The notes under the pieces: generated by a model | The model's database searches: none | What the model was told of the DNA's origin: nothing | Seen by the model: only the letters and a program-made list of their open reading frames with translations | Part shown: positions 18,424 through 30,009 of the stretch, one piece after another | Layout: every line of letters starts with the position of its first letter | Position numbering within the stretch: the stretch's first letter is position 1 | Made by a program: the position numbers and the translations under genes | DNA from: a virus | DNA length: 30,009 nt | Virus record (IMG/VR): IMGVR_UViG_3300021957_002986 | Location: 1-30,009 of that record | Direction: 5' to 3' (one strand)

Positions 18424-20235
18424 ATGAGTGGTTTTCGAGTAGATGTTAAATATTACAATTCTTTTTGGTTAAAAAAGACTATATACGTAGGTAGCTTGCC
18501 TAATCCAAGTGCAGGAGCGCCTGATCCTAATAGAGGTGGTTATGGCTCTGCTTTTCCAGGTCTACCTTGGAATCCAACGGTAAACTCTTTGAGTTTTCCT
18601 ACGTTTCCATCTGGCGCAGGTGATTCTGAAAATAGTAATTATGACGAAGTAGAAAATTGGTTTATAGAAGAATCTAGGTATCAAGGTGGTTATAACGATG
18701 TGTCAACTGATTATGGTGCTAAAGCTTATTTAAAAGAAGATAATAATGCTCAAGAATATAGGCCTAATGCTTTGATATACTCAGGCGTGTACAACTCTAG
18801 AACTGGATTAAACGATACTAATGTTTTCTCTGTAGGTGAAGCAATAACTAAAGCAGCTGATCCCCATGAAGGCAGCATACAGAAGCTATATGCTGAAGAT
18901 ACTAACTTAATAATATTTCAAGAAGACAAAGTTAATAGAGCTTTAATAGACAAAGATCAAATATACACTTCCGAAAGTGGTACACAAACACTACCACAAG
19001 GAACTGTTATTGGTCAAATAACCCCATATAAAGGTGAGTTTGGTATAAGTAAAAATCCAGAATCATTTGCTGTATATGGTTTTAGAAAATACTTTGCTGA
19101 CAAAGATAGAGGTTCTATACTTAGATTATCTCACGATGGTATGACTGAAATATCAGAATATGGCATGTCTAACTTTTTTAGAGATCAATTAAAAAATATA
19201 AGCGAACTACAACAGCCCGTTGATGTAGTTAAAGCTTCTAATGGACAATTTTCTACACCTAGTGGTAGTTTTCCAGATCCAAAATGGGTTCGAACTTTAG
19301 GAATACTTAATTCAGATGTTGAAACAGGAGCTGCTTTAATAGTTGCTGGTATTGAATATCCAATATATGTAACAGCCGTTGAAGGTGCTTATATATACTT
19401 AACTAGCCACTACAATGATAATACTAATAATCCTATAGTTAGTGGCACTGTAATAACTTTTAGAACTTATAAAAAAGACAAAATACAAGGAGCTTGGGAT
19501 ATACATGATAGAAATTATTTAGTTTCAATACAGCAAGAAATACAAGATGATTACCATACATTAAGCTTTGACGAAGGTGTTTTAGGTTGGCCAACTTTTT
19601 ACAGTTATAGACCAGGTGAAATGTTTAGTTTAAAAAATACTTTTTTTACAACAAAGTCTGGTGAAATATACCAGCATTATTTTGAAAGTGGTGGAAATAA
19701 TAGGAACAACTTTTATGGAGTTACTTCTAAATCTTCTATAACTTTTGTGTTTAATCCTCAACCAAATGTAAATAAAAACTTTTTAACTGTAGGTTATGAA
19801 GGTAGTAATGGTTGGCAAGCTGAAAGTTTTATATCGGATCTTCAAGGTTTTCAAGAAACCCCTAGCAACTATGTAAATCCTAATACTACTAACCCTTTGT
19901 ATGTAAATTACAACGATAGTAGTGTAATAGTAAATAGTTACTACGAAGGTGCTTACGACTCAGCTGGCAATGAATATCCAGCAGCGTTAACAGAGCCAAT
20001 ATATAGGGCTGGTTTCCATTTAAAGGAAGGTAAATATGTTGCTAACTTAAAAAGTAGTAGCACAGCTAGAGCTGGTGAAGTAGTATTTGGACCAGACGCT
20101 TATGGCGGTTATCCAACTAGTGGAATAAAAGGATTTATAGCAACAGTTAAATTATCAACCGATACTAGTACTGATCCAGGCGGGCAAAAACAAATATTTG
20201 CAGTATCGTCTAATCAAGTACAATCATCTAATTAA
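18424..20235 (+). CDS. Tail propeller/muzzle-type protein
   Basis: The 603-aa protein is mostly beta. It contains segments I recall from large podovirus tail proteins: E-E-S-R-Y-Q-G-G-Y-N-D (about 81-91), R-P-N-A-L-I-Y-S-G-V-Y-N-S-R-T-G-L-N, L-Y-A-E-D-T-N-L-I-I-F-Q-E-D-K-V, and G-I-S-K-N-P-E-S-F-A-V-Y-G-F-R-K-Y-F-A-D-K-D-R. These look like propeller blades of a tail hub or muzzle. It starts 2 bp after the stabilisation gene and probably works with it. In relatives these segments may lie within one longer polypeptide (recollection, unverified), so the two genes could be a split form. The stop at 20233 is in the same frame as the following gene. Confidence 0.65.
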   Translation: MSGFRVDVKYYNSFWLKKTIYVGSLPNPSAGAPDPNRGGYGSAFPGLPWNPTVNSLSFPTFPSGAGDSENSNYDEVENWFIEESRYQGGYNDVSTDYGAKAYLKEDNNAQEYRPNALIYSGVYNSRTGLNDTNVFSVGEAITKAADPHEGSIQKLYAEDTNLIIFQEDKVNRALIDKDQIYTSESGTQTLPQGTVIGQITPYKGEFGISKNPESFAVYGFRKYFADKDRGSILRLSHDGMTEISEYGMSNFFRDQLKNISELQQPVDVVKASNGQFSTPSGSFPDPKWVRTLGILNSDVETGAALIVAGIEYPIYVTAVEGAYIYLTSHYNDNTNNPIVSGTVITFRTYKKDKIQGAWDIHDRNYLVSIQQEIQDDYHTLSFDEGVLGWPTFYSYRPGEMFSLKNTFFTTKSGEIYQHYFESGGNNRNNFYGVTSKSSITFVFNPQPNVNKNFLTVGYEGSNGWQAESFISDLQGFQETPSNYVNPNTTNPLYVNYNDSSVIVNSYYEGAYDSAGNEYPAALTEPIYRAGFHLKEGKYVANLKSSSTARAGEVVFGPDAYGGYPTSGIKGFIATVKLSTDTSTDPGGQKQIFAVSSNQVQSSN

Positions 20236-23163: not shown

Positions 23164-26100
23164 ATGAGTGAATTTACACCACCAGCAGGAGCTGTTGTAT
23201 TAGAAGAAGATCAAGTAGAAGATGTAGCTCAAGTTGAAGAACAACAAATAGATTTTATTCCGCCAGCTAATGCTATACTAGAAGAGGAAGTTGAAACTGA
23301 ACCTATCAAAGAAGATGAAGAAGAATCAGGTGAAAAACTTACTGCTATTGAAAAAATACCTGGTATTGGTAAGAATGCAGTTACAGATTTCTTTGGTGAT
23401 ATATCTAGAGCTTGGACTCAAGGCGTAGAACAAGCTAAATCAGTTGATCCTAGTTTAGATATATTCTACGAAGGAGATGAATCAACAGATGAAGAGATTT
23501 TAAAGTTTATAGAAGCAAATAAAAATCTTGCAGAAGTAGATATGGAATCTGATGAAATGAAATCTTTTAATAAAATATATGAAGAAGAAGGTGGAGGTTG
23601 GTGGGGCTTTATAAAAGGTGCTGCAATGAATCCTTCTACTTTGTCATCTATGCTGGTAAGTTCTATATCAGGTCAAGTTAATTCTTTAATAAGTTCTGAG
23701 CAAGTTGCTGCGGCTAGCGCCGTTGCTGCTGGAGGTGGAGCTGCTGTTGGTGCTGGGTTTGCTGGCATAGGCGCTATACCTGGAGCTATAACAGGTTTGA
23801 TGACAGGTAGTATGACAGCTATGGAAACTGGCTTAACTTTTGCTGAACTATTACAAGAAGAAGTAGGTGGTGAGTTAACTAAAGAGAATGTAAGAGCAAT
23901 ACTAGATGATCCAGAAAAACTCCATGACCTAAGAGTGAGATCTGGTGGTAGAGGTTTAGCTATTGGAGCTGTTGAAGCTGCTACTATGGGTTTATCAAAA
24001 GGTATAGGTGGCAAACTAGCCTCTGCAGGTTTTAGAGCTGCGCCTACGGTAGCTGCTGCAGCCACAGGAGCAATAGAAATAGCTGGAGGTGGTTTAGGTG
24101 AAGTTGCTGGTAGAGCAGTAGCTGGTCAAGAAATGGACATAGCTGAAATAGGTTTTGAAGCTTTTGCAGGGTTAGGTAGTATGCCAATAACTGCTGGTCA
24201 ACAATTGCTAAATATAAACACAAACATTGATAGAGTTAAAATAAATAATCAATTAAAAAATACTGAATACAATAATTTAGTTGAAGCTTTTGATCCATCA
24301 ACCGATGTAACTGAAGCTGATTTAAATATATCTCAAATAAAAAACTCTACCAAGATATTAGACGAACAAGTCGATACTCAAGTTAAAAATACTCAAATAA
24401 CTCCTGAGCAAGGAGAAGCTATTAAAAATAATTTTAGAGCTACTCAATCAGCTACTAACAAAGCAAAAAGAGCAAATCTTAAAGGTGAAAACGAAGTTGA
24501 AGTTGTTGCATTACTAAAAGAAAAAGAAGTTCTTGATGGTGAAAGAAAAGCAGTTAATGAATCTAGTTTAACTAAGACTCAAGAAAAAAGAATTAAAGAA
24601 ATAGATGCTAGACTAGAAGAGGTAAGCTCTACTATAACTGATGTTGTAAAAGAAGATAGAAAAGCTCAAGTTGCAGAAAGCGTTAAGTTTGCAGAGACAG
24701 AAGGTGAAAAATTTGGTTTAAAAACAGAAGCTATAAATTCTAAAACAGAGTTTGGAGAGCGTTTTGGTAAAGAAGCTGCTGAATCAGATGGTTTTATACA
24801 AGACGGAACTATATATATTAACAAAGAAGTAGCTCAAGAAACAGGTGCTGTATCTGTTGGTAGCCACGAGTTACTACACGGTATATTAAATAAAGAATTA
24901 AAAGGCAAAGATGCTACTAAACTAGTACAAGACTTTAGAAATCAGTTAAACGAAAAGCAATTAAGTGTTCTTGATAGTAAGCTTCAAGCAGTAGATGAAA
25001 AAGGTAATAGATTATATTCAGATGATTACTTAACACAAAATCCTGATGAAGCTTTAACTTTATTTTCTGATGCTATAGCTAAAAAAGAAATAGCTTACGA
25101 CGACAATGTATTTACTAAGTTAAAAGACTTCTTAACACCTATACTGCGTAAAGCAGGATTTTCTAAGATTAAATTTGAAACAGGTAAAGACGTATATAAC
25201 TTTTTAAGAGAGTATAATAAAAGTATTAAAGAGGGTAAACTTAGTGAAGCTATATCTGAGTTAGGCACAGAAGAAGCAGAAGCTAGTGATAAAAAGTTTT
25301 CTAAGTCAACTTCTGACTCTTACAAAAAAATTGATGATTTTTCAAAAAATCCAGATTTTGATATAGATTCTGAGTTTGATACTAAAAGATTATTAAAAGA
25401 AGCTGGAGGTATTATAGAGTCAACAACATCTAGGCTTTATGACGGAACTGCTCAAATGAATAAAGAGGGTGTTTCAAGAGAAGATTTCAAAAGAGATTTA
25501 GAAGCGTTGTTTACCGAGATATATAAGGGATACGACGAAGACATGGATGTAAACATGCAAGGTGCTGGTAGACAAACTAGCAACTTATTTAATTTAAGAG
25601 CAAATAAATTAGCTACAGATACATTTAAACAAACTAGCAACGAAGTAAGGGCTGATCAAAGCACTTTACAAATAGCAGCTGAAGAAGAAACATCGAGAGA
25701 TACTAGAACTGAAAGAGAAGTAAGACAAGATGAAAGGGAAGGTGTTAAAGTAAGAGAAAAACTAGATCCAAAACCTACACTTGATGATGAAGGTAATGTT
25801 ATAAAACCTTTAAGTCCAGGAACTAGCACAACATCTATATATAAAGTAGATAAAGTTTATAACTTTATAAGATCTAAAGCTAGAAAACAAAACGTAAAAG
25901 GCAAGGACTTAAAACAATTAAAAGGATTTGCTTTAAAAGAGGTGGTAGACATGATTTCTAGAGATAATAAAGAGCTAGCAGACTCTATGTTTAAAAAACT
26001 AGAAAAGAACTCTGATCTTAATAAAGCTGAAATGCTAGCTATTCAAAATTTTATATTTGCAGATACTGATCTGTCTAAAAGTTCTTTAATAGAAGGTTAT

Positions 26101-29100
26101 ACTTCAGAATTCAAAGCTACAGGAGTTGTAAATAAATTATTAGAAAAGTTTTATAATAAACGTAGTGTTAGATCTAAGACTGGAGCTGGTTTAAATATTC
26201 AAATTAAAAAACCAAATATAAGTGATGTTGAGTTTAGAGAAGCTTTTGGCATAAAAGGTAGGGAAAGATCTAACTGGAATCAAAAAGTTCCTTCTAAAAA
26301 AGGTGGCGTAAGTGACATACTAAAAGGTTTTGTAAGAAACTTTGATCAAGTAATATCTAGTCAAGAAATTAGAGAACAATTAATACAAGATGGTGAAGCA
26401 ATAGAATCATTAAGAACTCTTAGAGATGGTATACCACCTCAACTTTTTAGCAAGAGTACAAAAGAAAAACTATTTACTGCTGAAAATTTAGGTAAAACTT
26501 TTAACAAGTTAAATGAAGATCAAAAGTCAACATACTTAGCTAATCTTCCAATGTTCATAGAGCTGCTATCTACTAAAGGTATTACTCCTGACACTGCTTT
26601 TAGATTAGCTTATGATACTTTTTTATATAACAAAAAAGGTACAAAACCGCTAAGTTTAAGAATAGATATAATAAGCTCTTGGAAAGATATAGTTGATCAA
26701 GCTCCTAAAACATTATACGATAGCAAAAAACCTAATAAATTCCAGCTTAATGAATATTTATATAGATCTTTTGAAGAACAAACAGATGTAGATTCAATAA
26801 AAGAAAACTTAGGTATAAGTAAGGAGGGTGTAAACTTTAGAGAAGAAGATCAAATGCTAGGTTATTTAAGCTTAATGAGTGAGTATTTTGGGGACTTGCA
26901 GCAAGAATTTGATAATGATGCTAAGTTTTTTCAATACGTTGTGCAGCATTTTGAACAAACTTTTACTTCTGCAGCTAAAATAGGTGGGCTACCTAATCAC
27001 GCGTGGAAACAAATTAATGGCATATGGAAACTAGTAGAAGGTGACAAGTCTGGCAGAGGTTCTGATTTAAGGTTTGGTTTATTTAATAATAAAACAGAGT
27101 TTTTTAATGTTTTATTAAAGCCTTTTGATACAGAAAATAAATTAAAACTTGTTAATAACAAACTTGTTTATGATAGTGAAAAAATAACAACAAAAAGAGC
27201 TCCACAATCTACAGCTGCTAAAAATAAATACCTAAAAGAGTTTATAAAAAATGGTAAATTAAGTAATGAAAGTTTGCTTTTAAGTTACAATGACGCTACT
27301 GGAAATCAAGATGCGATTATAAGACAACTAAAGTGGTATAAAGATAATCAAGCTAAAGACATTAAAGATAAAACTAAAGCTAACATAAATACAAATGATC
27401 TTGGTATGTTTTTAGCTGCTTCTGTTGGAGATATGACAGCAATACTTAGATCAGCTTATGCTATAGATAGTATAGCGTTAAGTGATAGTAAAAACTCAGC
27501 CGACTACACATATGAGCATAATCCACCTGTAAAAGTTATGCAAAACTACATGGCTCAATTTGTTAATGGTGATATTACAGAAGTTGAGTTAAGACAAAAA
27601 TTTAAAGATGCTAGCACTAGTGTTATACCAGAACTAATGGATGACGCTATTAATATAAGATACAAATCTAGTATACCTCAAGATTCTACAAGTAGGTTTG
27701 ATAGATATTATAATCCAACTACTTACGGCAAGTTTCCTTTTGAAATGACTGTTTATACTCCACAGTTTGATAAAGAAGGCAATGTTACATCATTTAAAAA
27801 ATCAGTTAAAGGTAAAGATTTAAACAAGGCTTACCAAGATGAACAAGCAGCTATAAAAGCTAACAAGCAAGAAGCAAGTAATAGTCAAGTTATAGCTGAT
27901 AAAGACATGACTAATGATGACATGCTTAAACAGTTTAGCAAAACAGACAAAGCTTTAGACTTAGCTAATTCACTAAATCAACCTGTTAAAAAAATTAGAG
28001 TATTTGACTTTGATGATACGCTAGCTTATACTAAGTCAGATGTTTTATTTACAGCACCTAATGGAATAACAGGTAAATTAAATGCTGAAGAGTTTGCCAA
28101 GCAAGGTAAAGAGCTGCTAGACCAAGGTTATAAGTTTGATTTTTCAGAGTTTAATAAAGTAACTAAAGGTAAGCCTGGCCCTTTATTAGATATAGCTAAA
28201 AAAATAAAAGCAGCTAGAGGTAATGAAGATTTATTTGTATTAACTGCTAGAGCTTCTGAAGCTCAAGATGCCATATATGAGTTTTTAAAATCACAAGGTG
28301 TTGAATTTAAAAAACAAAATATTGTTGGGTTAGGTAATTCAACTGGCGAAGCAAAAGCACAGTGGCTAGTTGGTAAGGCAGCTGAGGGTTATAATGATTT
28401 TTACTTTGCAGATGACGCTGTAGCTAATATATCTGCCGTCAAAGAAAGTATGTCTAAGCTAGATGTTAAGTCTAAAACTCAATTAGTAAATAGTAATAAA
28501 ATTAAATTTAGCAAGTCTCGTGGTGAGAAGTTAAACTGGAAAACAGATGAGGCTGGTAATATAAAAACTACTTTTGAAATAGCTGGTAAAAAATATAATT
28601 TTAATTTAGATTCTAGAGACAATCAAGGTTCTTTTGATGTAGAATTTAACTTAGGCGGTAGAATGGACATTACTGGAACAGGAGATGCTGTTGCAGTTAT
28701 TAGAACTGTTTATAATGGTTTAATAGATGTTATAAATGAAAATAAAAACATAAAGAAAATTGAATTTTCTTCTCTTCAATCTGAAACAAGTAGAGTAAAA
28801 CTATACACTACATTAATGAACGATATTGGCAAGAAGCTAGGTTGGGATACAGATGTTTGGGAAAGTAATAATTTTATATCACCAGAAAAAAGTAGTTTTG
28901 ATTTTGAAATAGTTAAACCTAGAAAGAAGCAATCTGCAGCTGTTGAAAGAGTTTTAGGCGTGGTAGATATTAAATCTGAAACACAGCAGTCAAGACCTAA
29001 GTTTAGTAAAAACCTTAGTGAAGATTTTAATAGAATAATAGAGGAAACAGAAAGTATAGGTAGAGAAAAGGTATACTCAGAAGCTAGAGCAAAACAAATA

Positions 29101-30009
29101 GGTAGTCAAAAAGGTAAACGTAAATTCTGGATACCTTTTTCTGCAGAAGATATGCTAGGTCTTATATATCCACTACTAGGTAAAGGTAAAACTGGAGATG
29201 CTCAAATGAAGTTTTTTAAAGACAACTTGTTTAATCCTTTTTCTAAAGCTATGGAAAGTTTAGCTGCGGCAAGGGTACAGTTAATGGCAGATTTTAAAGC
29301 TTTAAAAGAAAACTTAGATGTTCCTAAAGATTTACAGAAAGAAGCATTTGATGGCTTCACTAACGAGCAAGCATTGCGTATGTATATATGGGATTCTCAA
29401 GGCATGGAAGTTCCAGGAGCTTCTAAAAGAGATGTAGCTGATGCTAAGAAAATTATTAAAAGTAATGAAAAATTAAAAACTTTTGCTGAAGAACTTATAA
29501 AGATAAATAAAGAAGATGGTTACCCTAAACCTTCTCAAAGCTGGTTAGCTGGAACTATTACTACAGATCTTATTGAAGGTTTAAATGATATTAAAAGACC
29601 TAGATACTTACAGCAATGGCAGCAGAATGTTGATGCTATATTTAGTAAAGAAAATCTAAACAAATTAGAAGCTATACATGGAAGTAATTATAGAGAAGCG
29701 TTAGAAAACATGTTAACCAGAATGAAGACTGGCAAAAACAGAATAGAAGGTAGTAACAGAATGAGTGATAGAGTATTAGACTGGATTAATGGTTCTGTTG
29801 GCGCAATAATGTTCTTTAATACTAGATCAGCTGTGTTACAGTTAATATCTTCTATTAACTTTATAAACTGGAATGACAACAACTTATATGCAGCCGGCAA
29901 AGCTTTTGCTAATCAAAAACAATACTGGGCTGATTTTAAAATGTTAATGAATTCTGACTTCTTAGTAGATAGACGTAACGGACTTAAAATAAACGTATCA
30001 GAGTCAGAG
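23164..30009 (+). CDS. Giant polyvalent virion protein, 3'-truncated by window edge
   Basis: From ATG 23164 the frame is open for exactly 2282 codons to the last base, so the true protein is longer. Regions: acidic N-terminus with two copies of F-x-P-P-A-x-A-x-x-L-E-E (about 4-15, 31-41); Ala/Gly-rich hydrophobic stretches (about 160-220 and 262-345); zincin-like H-E-L-L-H (568-572); unassigned helical regions to about 1590; HAD phosphatase motifs (1615-1751); a compact possible acetyltransferase-like domain (about 1783-1945); and a C-terminal region ending with N-T-R-S-A-V-L-Q near 2219-2226. The motif F-S-K marks several joints. Such multi-domain proteins (polyvalent proteins) are thought to be packaged and injected with the DNA. 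It follows two ejection-type genes by 3 bp. Function overall is inferred. Confidence 0.8.
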   Translation, partial: MSEFTPPAGAVVLEEDQVEDVAQVEEQQIDFIPPANAILEEEVETEPIKEDEEESGEKLTAIEKIPGIGKNAVTDFFGDISRAWTQGVEQAKSVDPSLDIFYEGDESTDEEILKFIEANKNLAEVDMESDEMKSFNKIYEEEGGGWWGFIKGAAMNPSTLSSMLVSSISGQVNSLISSEQVAAASAVAAGGGAAVGAGFAGIGAIPGAITGLMTGSMTAMETGLTFAELLQEEVGGELTKENVRAILDDPEKLHDLRVRSGGRGLAIGAVEAATMGLSKGIGGKLASAGFRAAPTVAAAATGAIEIAGGGLGEVAGRAVAGQEMDIAEIGFEAFAGLGSMPITAGQQLLNINTNIDRVKINNQLKNTEYNNLVEAFDPSTDVTEADLNISQIKNSTKILDEQVDTQVKNTQITPEQGEAIKNNFRATQSATNKAKRANLKGENEVEVVALLKEKEVLDGERKAVNESSLTKTQEKRIKEIDARLEEVSSTITDVVKEDRKAQVAESVKFAETEGEKFGLKTEAINSKTEFGERFGKEAAESDGFIQDGTIYINKEVAQETGAVSVGSHELLHGILNKELKGKDATKLVQDFRNQLNEKQLSVLDSKLQAVDEKGNRLYSDDYLTQNPDEALTLFSDAIAKKEIAYDDNVFTKLKDFLTPILRKAGFSKIKFETGKDVYNFLREYNKSIKEGKLSEAISELGTEEAEASDKKFSKSTSDSYKKIDDFSKNPDFDIDSEFDTKRLLKEAGGIIESTTSRLYDGTAQMNKEGVSREDFKRDLEALFTEIYKGYDEDMDVNMQGAGRQTSNLFNLRANKLATDTFKQTSNEVRADQSTLQIAAEEETSRDTRTEREVRQDEREGVKVREKLDPKPTLDDEGNVIKPLSPGTSTTSIYKVDKVYNFIRSKARKQNVKGKDLKQLKGFALKEVVDMISRDNKELADSMFKKLEKNSDLNKAEMLAIQNFIFADTDLSKSSLIEGYTSEFKATGVVNKLLEKFYNKRSVRSKTGAGLNIQIKKPNISDVEFREAFGIKGRERSNWNQKVPSKKGGVSDILKGFVRNFDQVISSQEIREQLIQDGEAIESLRTLRDGIPPQLFSKSTKEKLFTAENLGKTFNKLNEDQKSTYLANLPMFIELLSTKGITPDTAFRLAYDTFLYNKKGTKPLSLRIDIISSWKDIVDQAPKTLYDSKKPNKFQLNEYLYRSFEEQTDVDSIKENLGISKEGVNFREEDQMLGYLSLMSEYFGDLQQEFDNDAKFFQYVVQHFEQTFTSAAKIGGLPNHAWKQINGIWKLVEGDKSGRGSDLRFGLFNNKTEFFNVLLKPFDTENKLKLVNNKLVYDSEKITTKRAPQSTAAKNKYLKEFIKNGKLSNESLLLSYNDATGNQDAIIRQLKWYKDNQAKDIKDKTKANINTNDLGMFLAASVGDMTAILRSAYAIDSIALSDSKNSADYTYEHNPPVKVMQNYMAQFVNGDITEVELRQKFKDASTSVIPELMDDAINIRYKSSIPQDSTSRFDRYYNPTTYGKFPFEMTVYTPQFDKEGNVTSFKKSVKGKDLNKAYQDEQAAIKANKQEASNSQVIADKDMTNDDMLKQFSKTDKALDLANSLNQPVKKIRVFDFDDTLAYTKSDVLFTAPNGITGKLNAEEFAKQGKELLDQGYKFDFSEFNKVTKGKPGPLLDIAKKIKAARGNEDLFVLTARASEAQDAIYEFLKSQGVEFKKQNIVGLGNSTGEAKAQWLVGKAAEGYNDFYFADDAVANISAVKESMSKLDVKSKTQLVNSNKIKFSKSRGEKLNWKTDEAGNIKTTFEIAGKKYNFNLDSRDNQGSFDVEFNLGGRMDITGTGDAVAVIRTVYNGLIDVINENKNIKKIEFSSLQSETSRVKLYTTLMNDIGKKLGWDTDVWESNNFISPEKSSFDFEIVKPRKKQSAAVERVLGVVDIKSETQQSRPKFSKNLSEDFNRIIEETESIGREKVYSEARAKQIGSQKGKRKFWIPFSAEDMLGLIYPLLGKGKTGDAQMKFFKDNLFNPFSKAMESLAAARVQLMADFKALKENLDVPKDLQKEAFDGFTNEQALRMYIWDSQGMEVPGASKRDVADAKKIIKSNEKLKTFAEELIKINKEDGYPKPSQSWLAGTITTDLIEGLNDIKRPRYLQQWQQNVDAIFSKENLNKLEAIHGSNYREALENMLTRMKTGKNRIEGSNRMSDRVLDWINGSVGAIMFFNTRSAVLQLISSINFINWNDNNLYAAGKAFANQKQYWADFKMLMNSDFLVDRRNGLKINVSESE
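23641..24200 (+). other. Ala/Gly-rich hydrophobic segments of giant protein
   Basis: Residues about 160-220 and 262-345 are rich in Ala, Gly, Val and Ile, with few charges (for example A-A-S-A-V-A-A-G-G-G-A-A-V-G). They are separated by a charged helical linker. They resemble membrane-active parts of ejection proteins. Whether they cross a membrane cannot be decided by eye. Confidence 0.5.
24661..25140 (+). other. Zincin metallopeptidase-like domain in giant protein
   Basis: Residues about 500-659 contain S-H-E-L-L-H-G, with H568, E569 and H572 forming an HExxH zinc-binding and catalytic site. The downstream Q-N-P-D-E-A-L-T-L-F-S-D-A puts E629 in a good position for the third zinc ligand of a gluzincin-type arrangement. 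Comparable domains are known in phage polyvalent proteins. Possible targets are host wall or envelope proteins or the polyprotein itself. Confidence 0.65.
27985..28500 (+). other. HAD-superfamily phosphatase domain in giant protein
   Basis: All four HAD motifs are present in order: V-F-D-F-D-D-T-L-A with nucleophile D1615 and acid/base D1617; V-L-T-A-R with T1694; K1731 in G-E-A-K-A-Q-W; and F-A-D-D with D1750/D1751. The spacing and the L-T-A-R motif recall small phage HAD phosphatases and the phosphatase part of polynucleotide kinase. The substrate is unknown. Confidence 0.8.
28507..29001 (+). other. Compact possible acetyltransferase-like domain in giant protein
   Basis: Residues about 1783-1945 lie between two F-S-K motifs. 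They read as beta strands (F-D-V-E-F-N-L) followed by T-G-T-G-D-A-V-A-V-I-R-T-V, a helix, I-E-F-S-S and S-R-V-K-L-Y-T-T-L-M. This beta-loop-helix-beta-helix order is GNAT-like. The assignment is tentative. Confidence 0.35.
29002..30009 (+). other. Conserved C-terminal virion region of giant protein (partial)
   Basis: Residues 1947-2282 include F-W-I-P-F-S-A-E-D-M-L-G, G-K-G-K-T-G-D-A-Q-M-K-F-F-K-D-N, R-M-K-T-G-K-N-R-I-E-G-S-N-R, F-F-N-T-R-S-A-V-L-Q and Y-W-A-D-F...N-S-D-F-L. I recall this pattern from very large structural proteins of marine phages and from 'large polyvalent protein associated' regions. Its function is unknown, and the domain continues beyond the window. Confidence 0.55.

Follow-up and report, generated by a model that had tools for sequence, protein, structure and literature searches.

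Polyvalent proteins bring together large numbers of effectors that act early in infection, which raises the question of how these proteins are taken apart. A stretch of viral DNA of 30,009 nucleotides, positions 1 to 30,009 of IMG/VR record IMGVR_UViG_3300021957_002986 (hereafter the window), encodes on its plus strand a giant polyvalent-type protein (23164..30009; 2282 residues in the window, the 3′ end being lost at the window edge). Several unlike domains are combined in this one large phage polypeptide: a zincin, a HAD-like domain, a compact domain and a C-terminal region. A reading of the DNA made earlier without database searches (the sequence-only reading) had noticed that a Phe-Ser-Lys (FSK) motif recurs at the domain boundaries of the protein, and had suggested that it may be a protease processing site or a linker signal that frees separate effectors. 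Here, FSK is found to mark module boundaries, at the level of the protein, in two sets of members of a family of modular phage polyproteins, and the interpretation first given to it is partly supported.

FSK occurs nine times in the window protein against 0.86 expected (Poisson 3e-7), which makes it the most over-represented tripeptide of the protein, and no tripeptide was as extreme in 300 shuffles. The 14 other window open reading frames (ORFs) that were checked contain two FSK and one WSK in total. The post hoc pattern [KLQ]FSK[STN] is present in five copies, where 0.037 would be expected, and these are exactly the five sites previously flagged, all of them as they had been described. Motif 1, KFSKS, is at residue 712, after the zincin (25294..25308, plus strand as for all features of this protein; FSK codons TTT-TCT-AAG); motif 2, LFSKS, at residue 1095 (26443..26457; TTT-AGC-AAG); motif 3, QFSKT, at residue 1591, about 14 residues before the HAD-like domain (27931..27945; TTT-AGC-AAA); motif 4, KFSKS, at residue 1782 (28504..28518; TTT-AGC-AAG); and motif 5, KFSKN, at residue 1947 (28999..29013; TTT-AGT-AAA). 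The four further FSKs have other flanks: GFSKI at 666, placed inside the zincin by sequence and model (25159..25167); DFSKN at 726, 14 residues after motif 1 (25339..25347); PFSKA at 2026, a non-junction copy in a predicted helix (29239..29247; predicted local distance difference test (pLDDT) of the block 70); and IFSKE at 2160, also non-junction, in a turn between predicted helices (29641..29649; block pLDDT 72). The copy at 726 is kept with its own module, and its context, SDSYKKID[DE]FSKNPDF, is also present in the close relatives L010 and L013. The window protein was modelled twice, from one alignment of 11 sequences and one of 12, with poor quality overall (mean pLDDT 47.7 and 45.3). In these low-confidence models, four of the five junction sites lie in coil within ten-residue blocks of pLDDT 26–35 (30 for the block of residue 712, 29 for 1095, 31 for 1782 and 26 for 1947), as expected of the exposed linkers that had been proposed, whereas the site at 1591 falls in a low-confidence predicted helix (block pLDDT 44). 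Copies inside folded cores do exist, at 666, 2026 and 2160, and none of the five is among them.

Members of the family were gathered from loci found by scans with the C-terminal region and the zincin, and the 116 giant ORFs were reduced to 94 at 95% identity over 80% of the length. For each tripeptide, the 60 residues to the left and to the right of every occurrence were clustered by homology with single linkage, omitting occurrences within 60 residues of the protein ends, and the "extra edges" were counted, a measure of how often a left cluster is linked to more than one right cluster, or a right cluster to more than one left; for the controls, any site lying 12 residues or less from an FSK was discarded. 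FSK has 42 extra edges and is the first of 582 tripeptides (581 controls with mean 8.1, standard deviation (SD) 5.5 and maximum 31); the main joints follow the zincin or precede the HAD domain (11 left clusters) and the C-terminal region. When the control sites near FSK were kept, in a smaller sample, SKS, which overlaps FSKS, reached 43 and FSK 42. By ratio, KFS outside FSK stands at 0.62 and FSK at 0.55 in this first set; the tripeptides with a high ratio besides FSK, namely KFS outside FSK, SKT and SKS, are degenerate forms of the same motif. A second set was drawn with a broader zincin profile from the best 80 of 427 viral-contig loci plus four genome loci, and its 76 ORFs were reduced to 50 by dropping those below 600 residues or with 85% identity over 60% of the length, also to members of the first set. 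In the second set alone FSK has 31 extra edges, the first of 668 tripeptides (667 controls with mean 4.6, SD 3.2 and maximum 19), and 81 copies against 30.1 expected. Both sets together (144 proteins) give 69 extra edges for FSK and 3–9 for its anagrams FKS, SFK, SKF and KSF. An FSK is found at most 30 residues before the C-terminal region in 35 of 74 proteins, the window protein included, the start of that region having been set by a crude pattern that misplaces a few. The junction tests thus place the motif at module boundaries in both member sets, as the sequence-only reading had it for the window protein.

The motif extends beyond the tripeptide. In 70 distinct junction contexts, Ile is enriched 4.8-fold at position −2 (where I, V or L are favoured), Lys 4.9-fold and Gln 3.4-fold at −1, and Ser 6.3-fold and Thr 4.9-fold at +3, whereas in 40 non-junction FSK contexts these preferences are nil or weak (Lys 0.9-fold, Ser 2.0-fold). 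The resulting consensus is [ILV]-[KQ]-[F>L,Y]-S-[K>L,R]-[ST], with substitutes at the first place (F > L > Y) and at the third (K > L > R) and none that comes near the middle serine. A single chain, that of L038, contains IEFSKT, IQFSKT twice, LQFSKT and VQFSKN. Among 124 proteins of at least 1800 residues, [KQ]FSK[ST] averages 0.71 copies per protein against 0.013 expected, so that the motif does recur in homologues, though many have few copies or none. A strong zincin match is present in 109 of the 144 proteins; the 83 copies of [KQ]FSK[ST] in these are all after the zincin, with none inside and none before, although roughly one quarter of the sequence counted precedes it. The corresponding counts for all FSKs are 13 before, 7 inside and 210 after, and for a looser motif core 1 before and 70 after, while the three anagrams tried have no positional bias relative to the zincin at p < 0.05; these p-values are only indicative, because copies in related proteins are not independent. 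On a disorder scale, the sequence around junction copies scores as more prone to disorder than random positions do (p 2e-8), and more than the flanks of other FSKs (p 0.01). The middle serine is encoded by 44 TCN and 26 AGY codons at the 70 junction contexts, the ORF background being 63.5 to 36.5%, and nine distinct nine-base sequences encode FSK there. Since the serine codons match the background, selection acts on the peptide and not on the DNA, in agreement with the earlier remark that the motif is kept at the protein level.

How modules meet at the motif can be followed in the six close relatives first compared (L008–L013), whose domain architecture varies by loss or replacement of modules. 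The module at 1782–1947 has no counterpart in L008, L009 and L012, where the end of the HAD part joins ...AR[PV]KFSK directly; this compact-domain module (28522–28923) is present in the window, L010 and L013. L013 departs from homology at GFFSKSS, equivalent to site 1095, continues with a foreign stretch of about 370 residues, and regains homology near GFFSKVM, its counterpart of site 1591 lying a further 18 residues on. The foreign module (L013:10840-11937), bounded by FFSK, has by eye the look of a PD-(D/E)XK nuclease, judged from its signature; it has no Pfam match at E 1. A different module follows site 712 in L008 and L011, LSR replaces FSK at that site in L009 and L012, and in L010 and L013 the module that holds site 726 is preceded by a different N-terminal half and a diverged zincin (34% identical to that of the window in L010). 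The motif can be inherited with either the right-hand or the left-hand module. A further case, a split of the giant gene in L041 (9840-10060), was considered as a break at a joint and rejected: it is an apparent deletion with a frameshift inside the HAD part, and in L040, a near relative of L041, the frame of the giant gene is uninterrupted.

A related motif is found in other giant phage proteins, as the sequence-only reading had indicated when it mentioned F-S-(K/R) patches in polyvalent proteins. A sample of polyvalent proteins with the LPD38 domain was drawn from viral contigs and prokaryote genomes (80 of 249 loci; 86 ORFs, reduced to 60 by dropping those below 600 residues or with 85% identity over 60% of the length); only six with long frames came from genomes, and two of these six have FSR in linker-like sequence (VRFSRS, ARFSRS, SMFSRH). 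The 60 proteins contain 63 FSR against 21.4 expected, and 27 FSK against 23.7. In their junction test DIR is first, FSR 18th of 702, YSR 36th and FSK 614th with no extra edge; DIR precedes [FY]SR in several examples. Pooled [FY]SR has 25 extra edges, compared with a mean of 7.0 (SD 3.6, maximum 20) for 300 random patterns of like frequency and with 1–3 for its anagrams. After thinning of same-protein neighbours, and at homology thresholds of 55, 80 and 100, it has 22, 18 and 14 extra edges, counts reached by 0, 1 and 6 of the 300 controls, and at threshold 100 its ratio is reached by 8 of 300; this part is exploratory, as the pooled pattern was chosen after the first examples. LPD38 proteins thus resemble the window family in having [FY]SR at junctions and differ from it in having Arg for Lys, flanks rich in Gly, Ala and Pro, and no link with HExxH. 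None of the 144 family proteins matches the LPD38 profile, and 4 of the 60 LPD38 proteins have any blastp match to the family. [FY]SR in LPD38 proteins is probably a sister form of the motif. In one LPD38 protein (L256) the joint DIRYSRAK occurs three times, at residues 2217, 2461 and 2706, twice after an FSPTxPDIR ending. P1 DarB, DdrB and DarA and crAss001 gp45, gp46, gp47, gp49 and gp50 have no FSK excess, and the giant proteins of MW202828 and of elemoA, phi38:1, phi13:2 and Gundel_1, cultured phages that are near by their terminase, have 0–2 FSK each, with no clear excess.

What the motif does is a matter of weighing. A proteolytic processing site appears to be its likeliest reading, and we rate as an even call the full proposal, in which the window protein would be a modular polyprotein of several effectors, probably carried in the virion, whose motif both marks the joints and serves as a site of proteolytic processing. 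The short linear motif marks the joints between exchangeable modules and, if it is taken as a processing site, the chain would be cut there into an N-terminal virion-plus-zincin piece and separate modules, namely 712–1094, 1095–1590, the HAD part, the compact 1787–1920 domain and the C-terminal region. A wider version, possible and on the whole doubtful, would make [FY]-S-[KR] a general punctuation code of phage polyvalent proteins, cut by a phage or host protease before or after delivery; modules would then be freely exchangeable because each brings the same cut signal. An N-terminal Phe, Tyr or Leu is a ClpS-type N-degron. If the cut is made before the aromatic residue, the freed effectors would start with Phe, Tyr or Leu and so carry an N-degron timing their destruction.

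The least certain part is the agent, and the possibility that the zincin within the chain makes the cuts. A hydrophobic first residue would suit the P1′ pocket of a zincin. The core motif averages 1.09 copies in 32 proteins with the zincin type of the window and 0.33 in 15 without (p 0.048), with a rank correlation of 0.53 between core motif and zincin score; this contrast in favour of the zincin is uncorrected and is confounded by descent. At the C-terminal joint, [FY]S[KR] is present in 49 of the 93 proteins that have the window zincin type, in 3 of the 11 whose HExxH is of another kind and in 1 of the 3 that lack HExxH. Autoprocessing of polyvalent proteins by the zincin was proposed before by Iyer et al. 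2017 (PMC5512222).

A number of results speak against cleavage at the motif, by the zincin in particular, or soften the case for the boundaries themselves. Among 10 phylogenetically independent pairs that differ in zincin type, the motif of the C-terminal junction differs in two, once each way; the density of [FY]SR in LPD38 proteins per 1000 residues is 0.59 with HExxH (32 proteins) and 0.64 without (28); and within single proteins no significant excess of likeness is found at −1 or +3 (p 0.23 and 0.06; 26 proteins), hence there is no sign of co-evolution with a reader in the same chain. Neither the pairs, nor the LPD38 proteins, nor the concordance within proteins support the in-chain zincin as a proven cutter; if there is a cutter, it may be a different protease of phage or host, or may act in trans. 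Cleavage at the motif, and with it the release of effectors, is predicted from sequence. Many relatives have few copies or none, as [KQ]FSK[ST] is present at least once in 54 of the 124 long proteins and at least twice in 26. As to the junction test, the second set is not independent in descent, since it shares diverged joints with the first, and single linkage chains unlike flanks: site 666, the flanks of which overlap with those of 712, was put in the class of 712, as was 726, and the C-terminal region was fused with the module that follows 1095. Since such chaining blurs the clusters, the test was repeated with same-protein neighbours thinned and at homology thresholds of 55, 80 and 100, where FSK had 45, 36 and 35 extra edges in the first set against maxima of 28, 24 and 26 in 400 controls, and 30, 25 and 24 in the second against 15, 19 and 19. 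By ratio, one control equals or exceeds FSK at each threshold in the first set, and two do so in the second set at the strictest threshold. Two weaker and cruder tests are less favourable. Counted by independent contexts, FSK reaches 73 where its composition predicts 66.2, and it ranks 13 of 224; FKS, SFK and SKF, its anagrams, stand at 0.62–0.77 of expectation. BLAST breakpoints, taken as alignment end points that overshoot and repeat homologous joints, are enriched near FSK 3.5-, 3.9- and 1.9-fold at 50, 60 and 70% identity, where at 70% or more 9 of 147 lie near FSK (p 0.05).

Other explanations have to be set beside processing. The motif could be a docking or sorting tag, bound and not cut by capsid, portal, ejection protein or chaperone, so that the modules are packed, or threaded along the tail, in order. 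Such a tag would agree with a short six-residue consensus in joints that are flexible where modelled, and with the independence of the motif from zincin type; the cargo proteins of crAss001 are thought to be partly unfolded during ejection (PMC10172136). We nevertheless judge it unlikely, as [KQ]FSK[ST] is absent from the N-terminal part and many relatives have only one or two copies, or none. Equally unlikely, in our view, is a passive structural cap, a hinge or domain-start peptide imported with its module and kept because it tolerates exchange. The position of the motif at domain edges and in linkers, and its inheritance with the left-hand or the right-hand module, are what such a cap would give, but passive linkers are not expected to need the same six residues at unlike joints, nor a particular serine at the second place, and no [KQ]FSK[ST] precedes the zincin.

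Two further explanations would deny the peptide a function. Chance and shared descent, with FSK common in Lys-rich proteins and inherited along with a few conserved modules, would account for the small excess of independent contexts over composition (73 against 66) and for the several FSKs inside conserved domains. It is hard to reconcile with FSK being first of 582 and of 668 tripeptides, with flat anagrams, with a consensus confined to junctions and with the like result for [FY]SR in LPD38 proteins, and we regard it as very improbable. Least credible of all is a scar of recombination at the DNA level, a short repeated sequence at which modules swap: modules do swap at these sites, but the junction serine codons are near background and nine different nine-base sequences code for FSK. 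Processing at the joints remains the explanation that we prefer.

Similar arrangements are known. MARTX toxins consist of one chain with an internal cysteine protease, their effectors are parted by cut sites in the linkers, and modules are exchanged between strains; the window protein differs in having a zincin in place of the cysteine protease, in being a phage protein and not a secreted toxin, and in its six-residue motif where MARTX toxins are cut mainly at leucine, cutting in the present case being predicted from sequence. In the polymorphic toxins CdiA (VENN) and Rhs (DPxGL), the joint at which modules are exchanged, and at which the chain is cut, carries a short invariant peptide, whereas the motif described here is present at several joints within a single protein, all of them downstream of the peptidase. 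Closer to phages, DarA of P1 is cut by the prohead protease Pro (PMC12810830), and prohead protease sites in phage head and ejection proteins, in P1 DarA and reportedly in SPN3US, are likewise defined sites at which virion-carried proteins are processed. The polyvalent proteins of PMC5512222 are also giant multidomain phage proteins with a zincin-like metallopeptidase and effector-type domains; its main text names no boundary motif of this kind, and FSK, FSR and RFS have no occurrence there. The motif is unmentioned in passages of PMC10172136, PMC12810830, PMC9024508 and PMC7824862, and unnamed in the titles and abstract openings of the literature searched, a coverage outside which most subscription papers fall; no paper in it joins "FSK motif" with "phage", and "RFSR" and "FSR motif" do not occur in the 15 papers checked for them. 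With a boundary motif that can be read, large numbers of unannotated giant phage proteins could be divided into modules by sequence alone, virion proteomics would know which bonds to search for, and point mutants could put the zincin-processing proposal of 2017 to the test. The motif further suggests by what means effector modules can go on being exchanged between phages.

The domains of the window protein correspond broadly to the intervals between motifs. The N-terminal region (residues 54–430; 23323..24453) matches phrog_32588, of unknown function (E 2e-52). It is followed by the zincin-like metallopeptidase (residues ~497–690; 24652..25233), assigned from its HExxH at 568–572 (24865-24879) and a conserved downstream Glu at 629. 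H568, E569 and H572 are invariant in 18 diverse members, and E629 in 12 members and in 21 zincin segments; the domain is the best-predicted part of the N-terminal model, and a structure search for the fold returned helical matches only. The zincin slot is apparently swapped in some relatives, as L018, L023, L030, L031, L036, L043, L049, L050, L061, L064, L066 and L071 have the same C-terminal region with other HExxH sequences that fall outside the profile of the window-type zincin (HELLH in another context, HEIGH, HEVGH, HELSH, HEMSH, HEPGH, HETGH, HESGH and HEVLH). The zincin does precede site 712 and the conserved region does begin just after 1947, as had been read from the sequence, while the FSK at 666 lies inside the zincin. 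The HAD-like domain, of phosphatase/polynucleotide-kinase type, occupies residues ~1605–1748 (27976..28407), within the 1591–1782 first allotted to it; it matches phrog_415 at residues 1605–1761 (E 1e-7) and, in structural alignment, phosphatase chains with VIA Z up to 7.5. The compact domain, for which 1782–1947 had been given, is likewise shorter (residues ~1787–1920; 28522..28923). It may tentatively be GNAT acetyltransferase-like: many GNAT chains align at VIA Z 6.2–6.8, and antizyme (7.3), ICL2 (7.1) and RNase E (6.2–6.7) chains at like values keep this assignment tentative, all matches being below the Z of 8 that the tool calls meaningful. A weak Pfam match of this domain to YidC_periplas (E 0.0017) is under the cut-off of that family. 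The conserved, largely helical C-terminal region (residue 1955 onward; 29026..30009) has 83–93% identity among five close members, and a relative of it is encoded at 60 viral loci.

The window protein has no Pfam match at 0.01 and none by tblastn among 50,697 phage records; the LPD38 profile finds no match in it and is equally silent on the control genomes, and a search of the BFVD structures gave whole-chain matches of low template modelling score, the best (E 2e-9) to an unnamed protein. Stop-to-stop frames of 2407–2963 residues are present in L008, L009, L010 and L012, and the protein of L008 runs about 340 residues beyond the cut end of the window protein. An ART-PolyVal domain is found in one of 18 relatives.

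As to the setting, the nearest terminase among the same 50,697 records is that of the uncultured phage MW202828 (66%), followed by those of the Flavobacterium phages elemoA–F (45%), and the 87 matches also include Cellulophaga, Tenacibaculum and Maribacter phages. The same gene cluster closes, in elemoA, phi38:1 and phi13:2, with a giant gene whose annotation is structural; Gundel_1 has its giant structural gene ahead of the terminase, and in MW202828 the giant gene carries a different name. The N-terminal parts of the distant relatives L054, L055, L058 and L072, though not that of the window protein itself, match gp101, a virion protein of Cellulophaga phage phi38:1 that is annotated as structural (23–24% over ~365 residues). 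Judged by this gene order and by the N-terminal similarity of its relatives, the window protein is probably carried in the virion or ejected, and is probably injected into bacteria by a marine phage. The zincin profile has four matches in the genome collection, all metagenome-assembled, of which three are Bacteroidota by name; the fourth zincin-encoding contig (L128) is binned in an Aliivibrio metagenome genome, unlike these three, which may be a binning error. Elsewhere in the window, positions 18424-20235 match crAss_MUZ_C, the muzzle domain of crassviruses, so that a crassvirus-type muzzle is present in a lineage with a terminase near those of Elemovirus, Pervagoviridae and Pachyviridae phages. 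Finally, an open-ended ORF of 884 residues at positions 2-2656 contains four Laminin_G_3 stretches and possibly encodes a receptor-binding or fibre protein.

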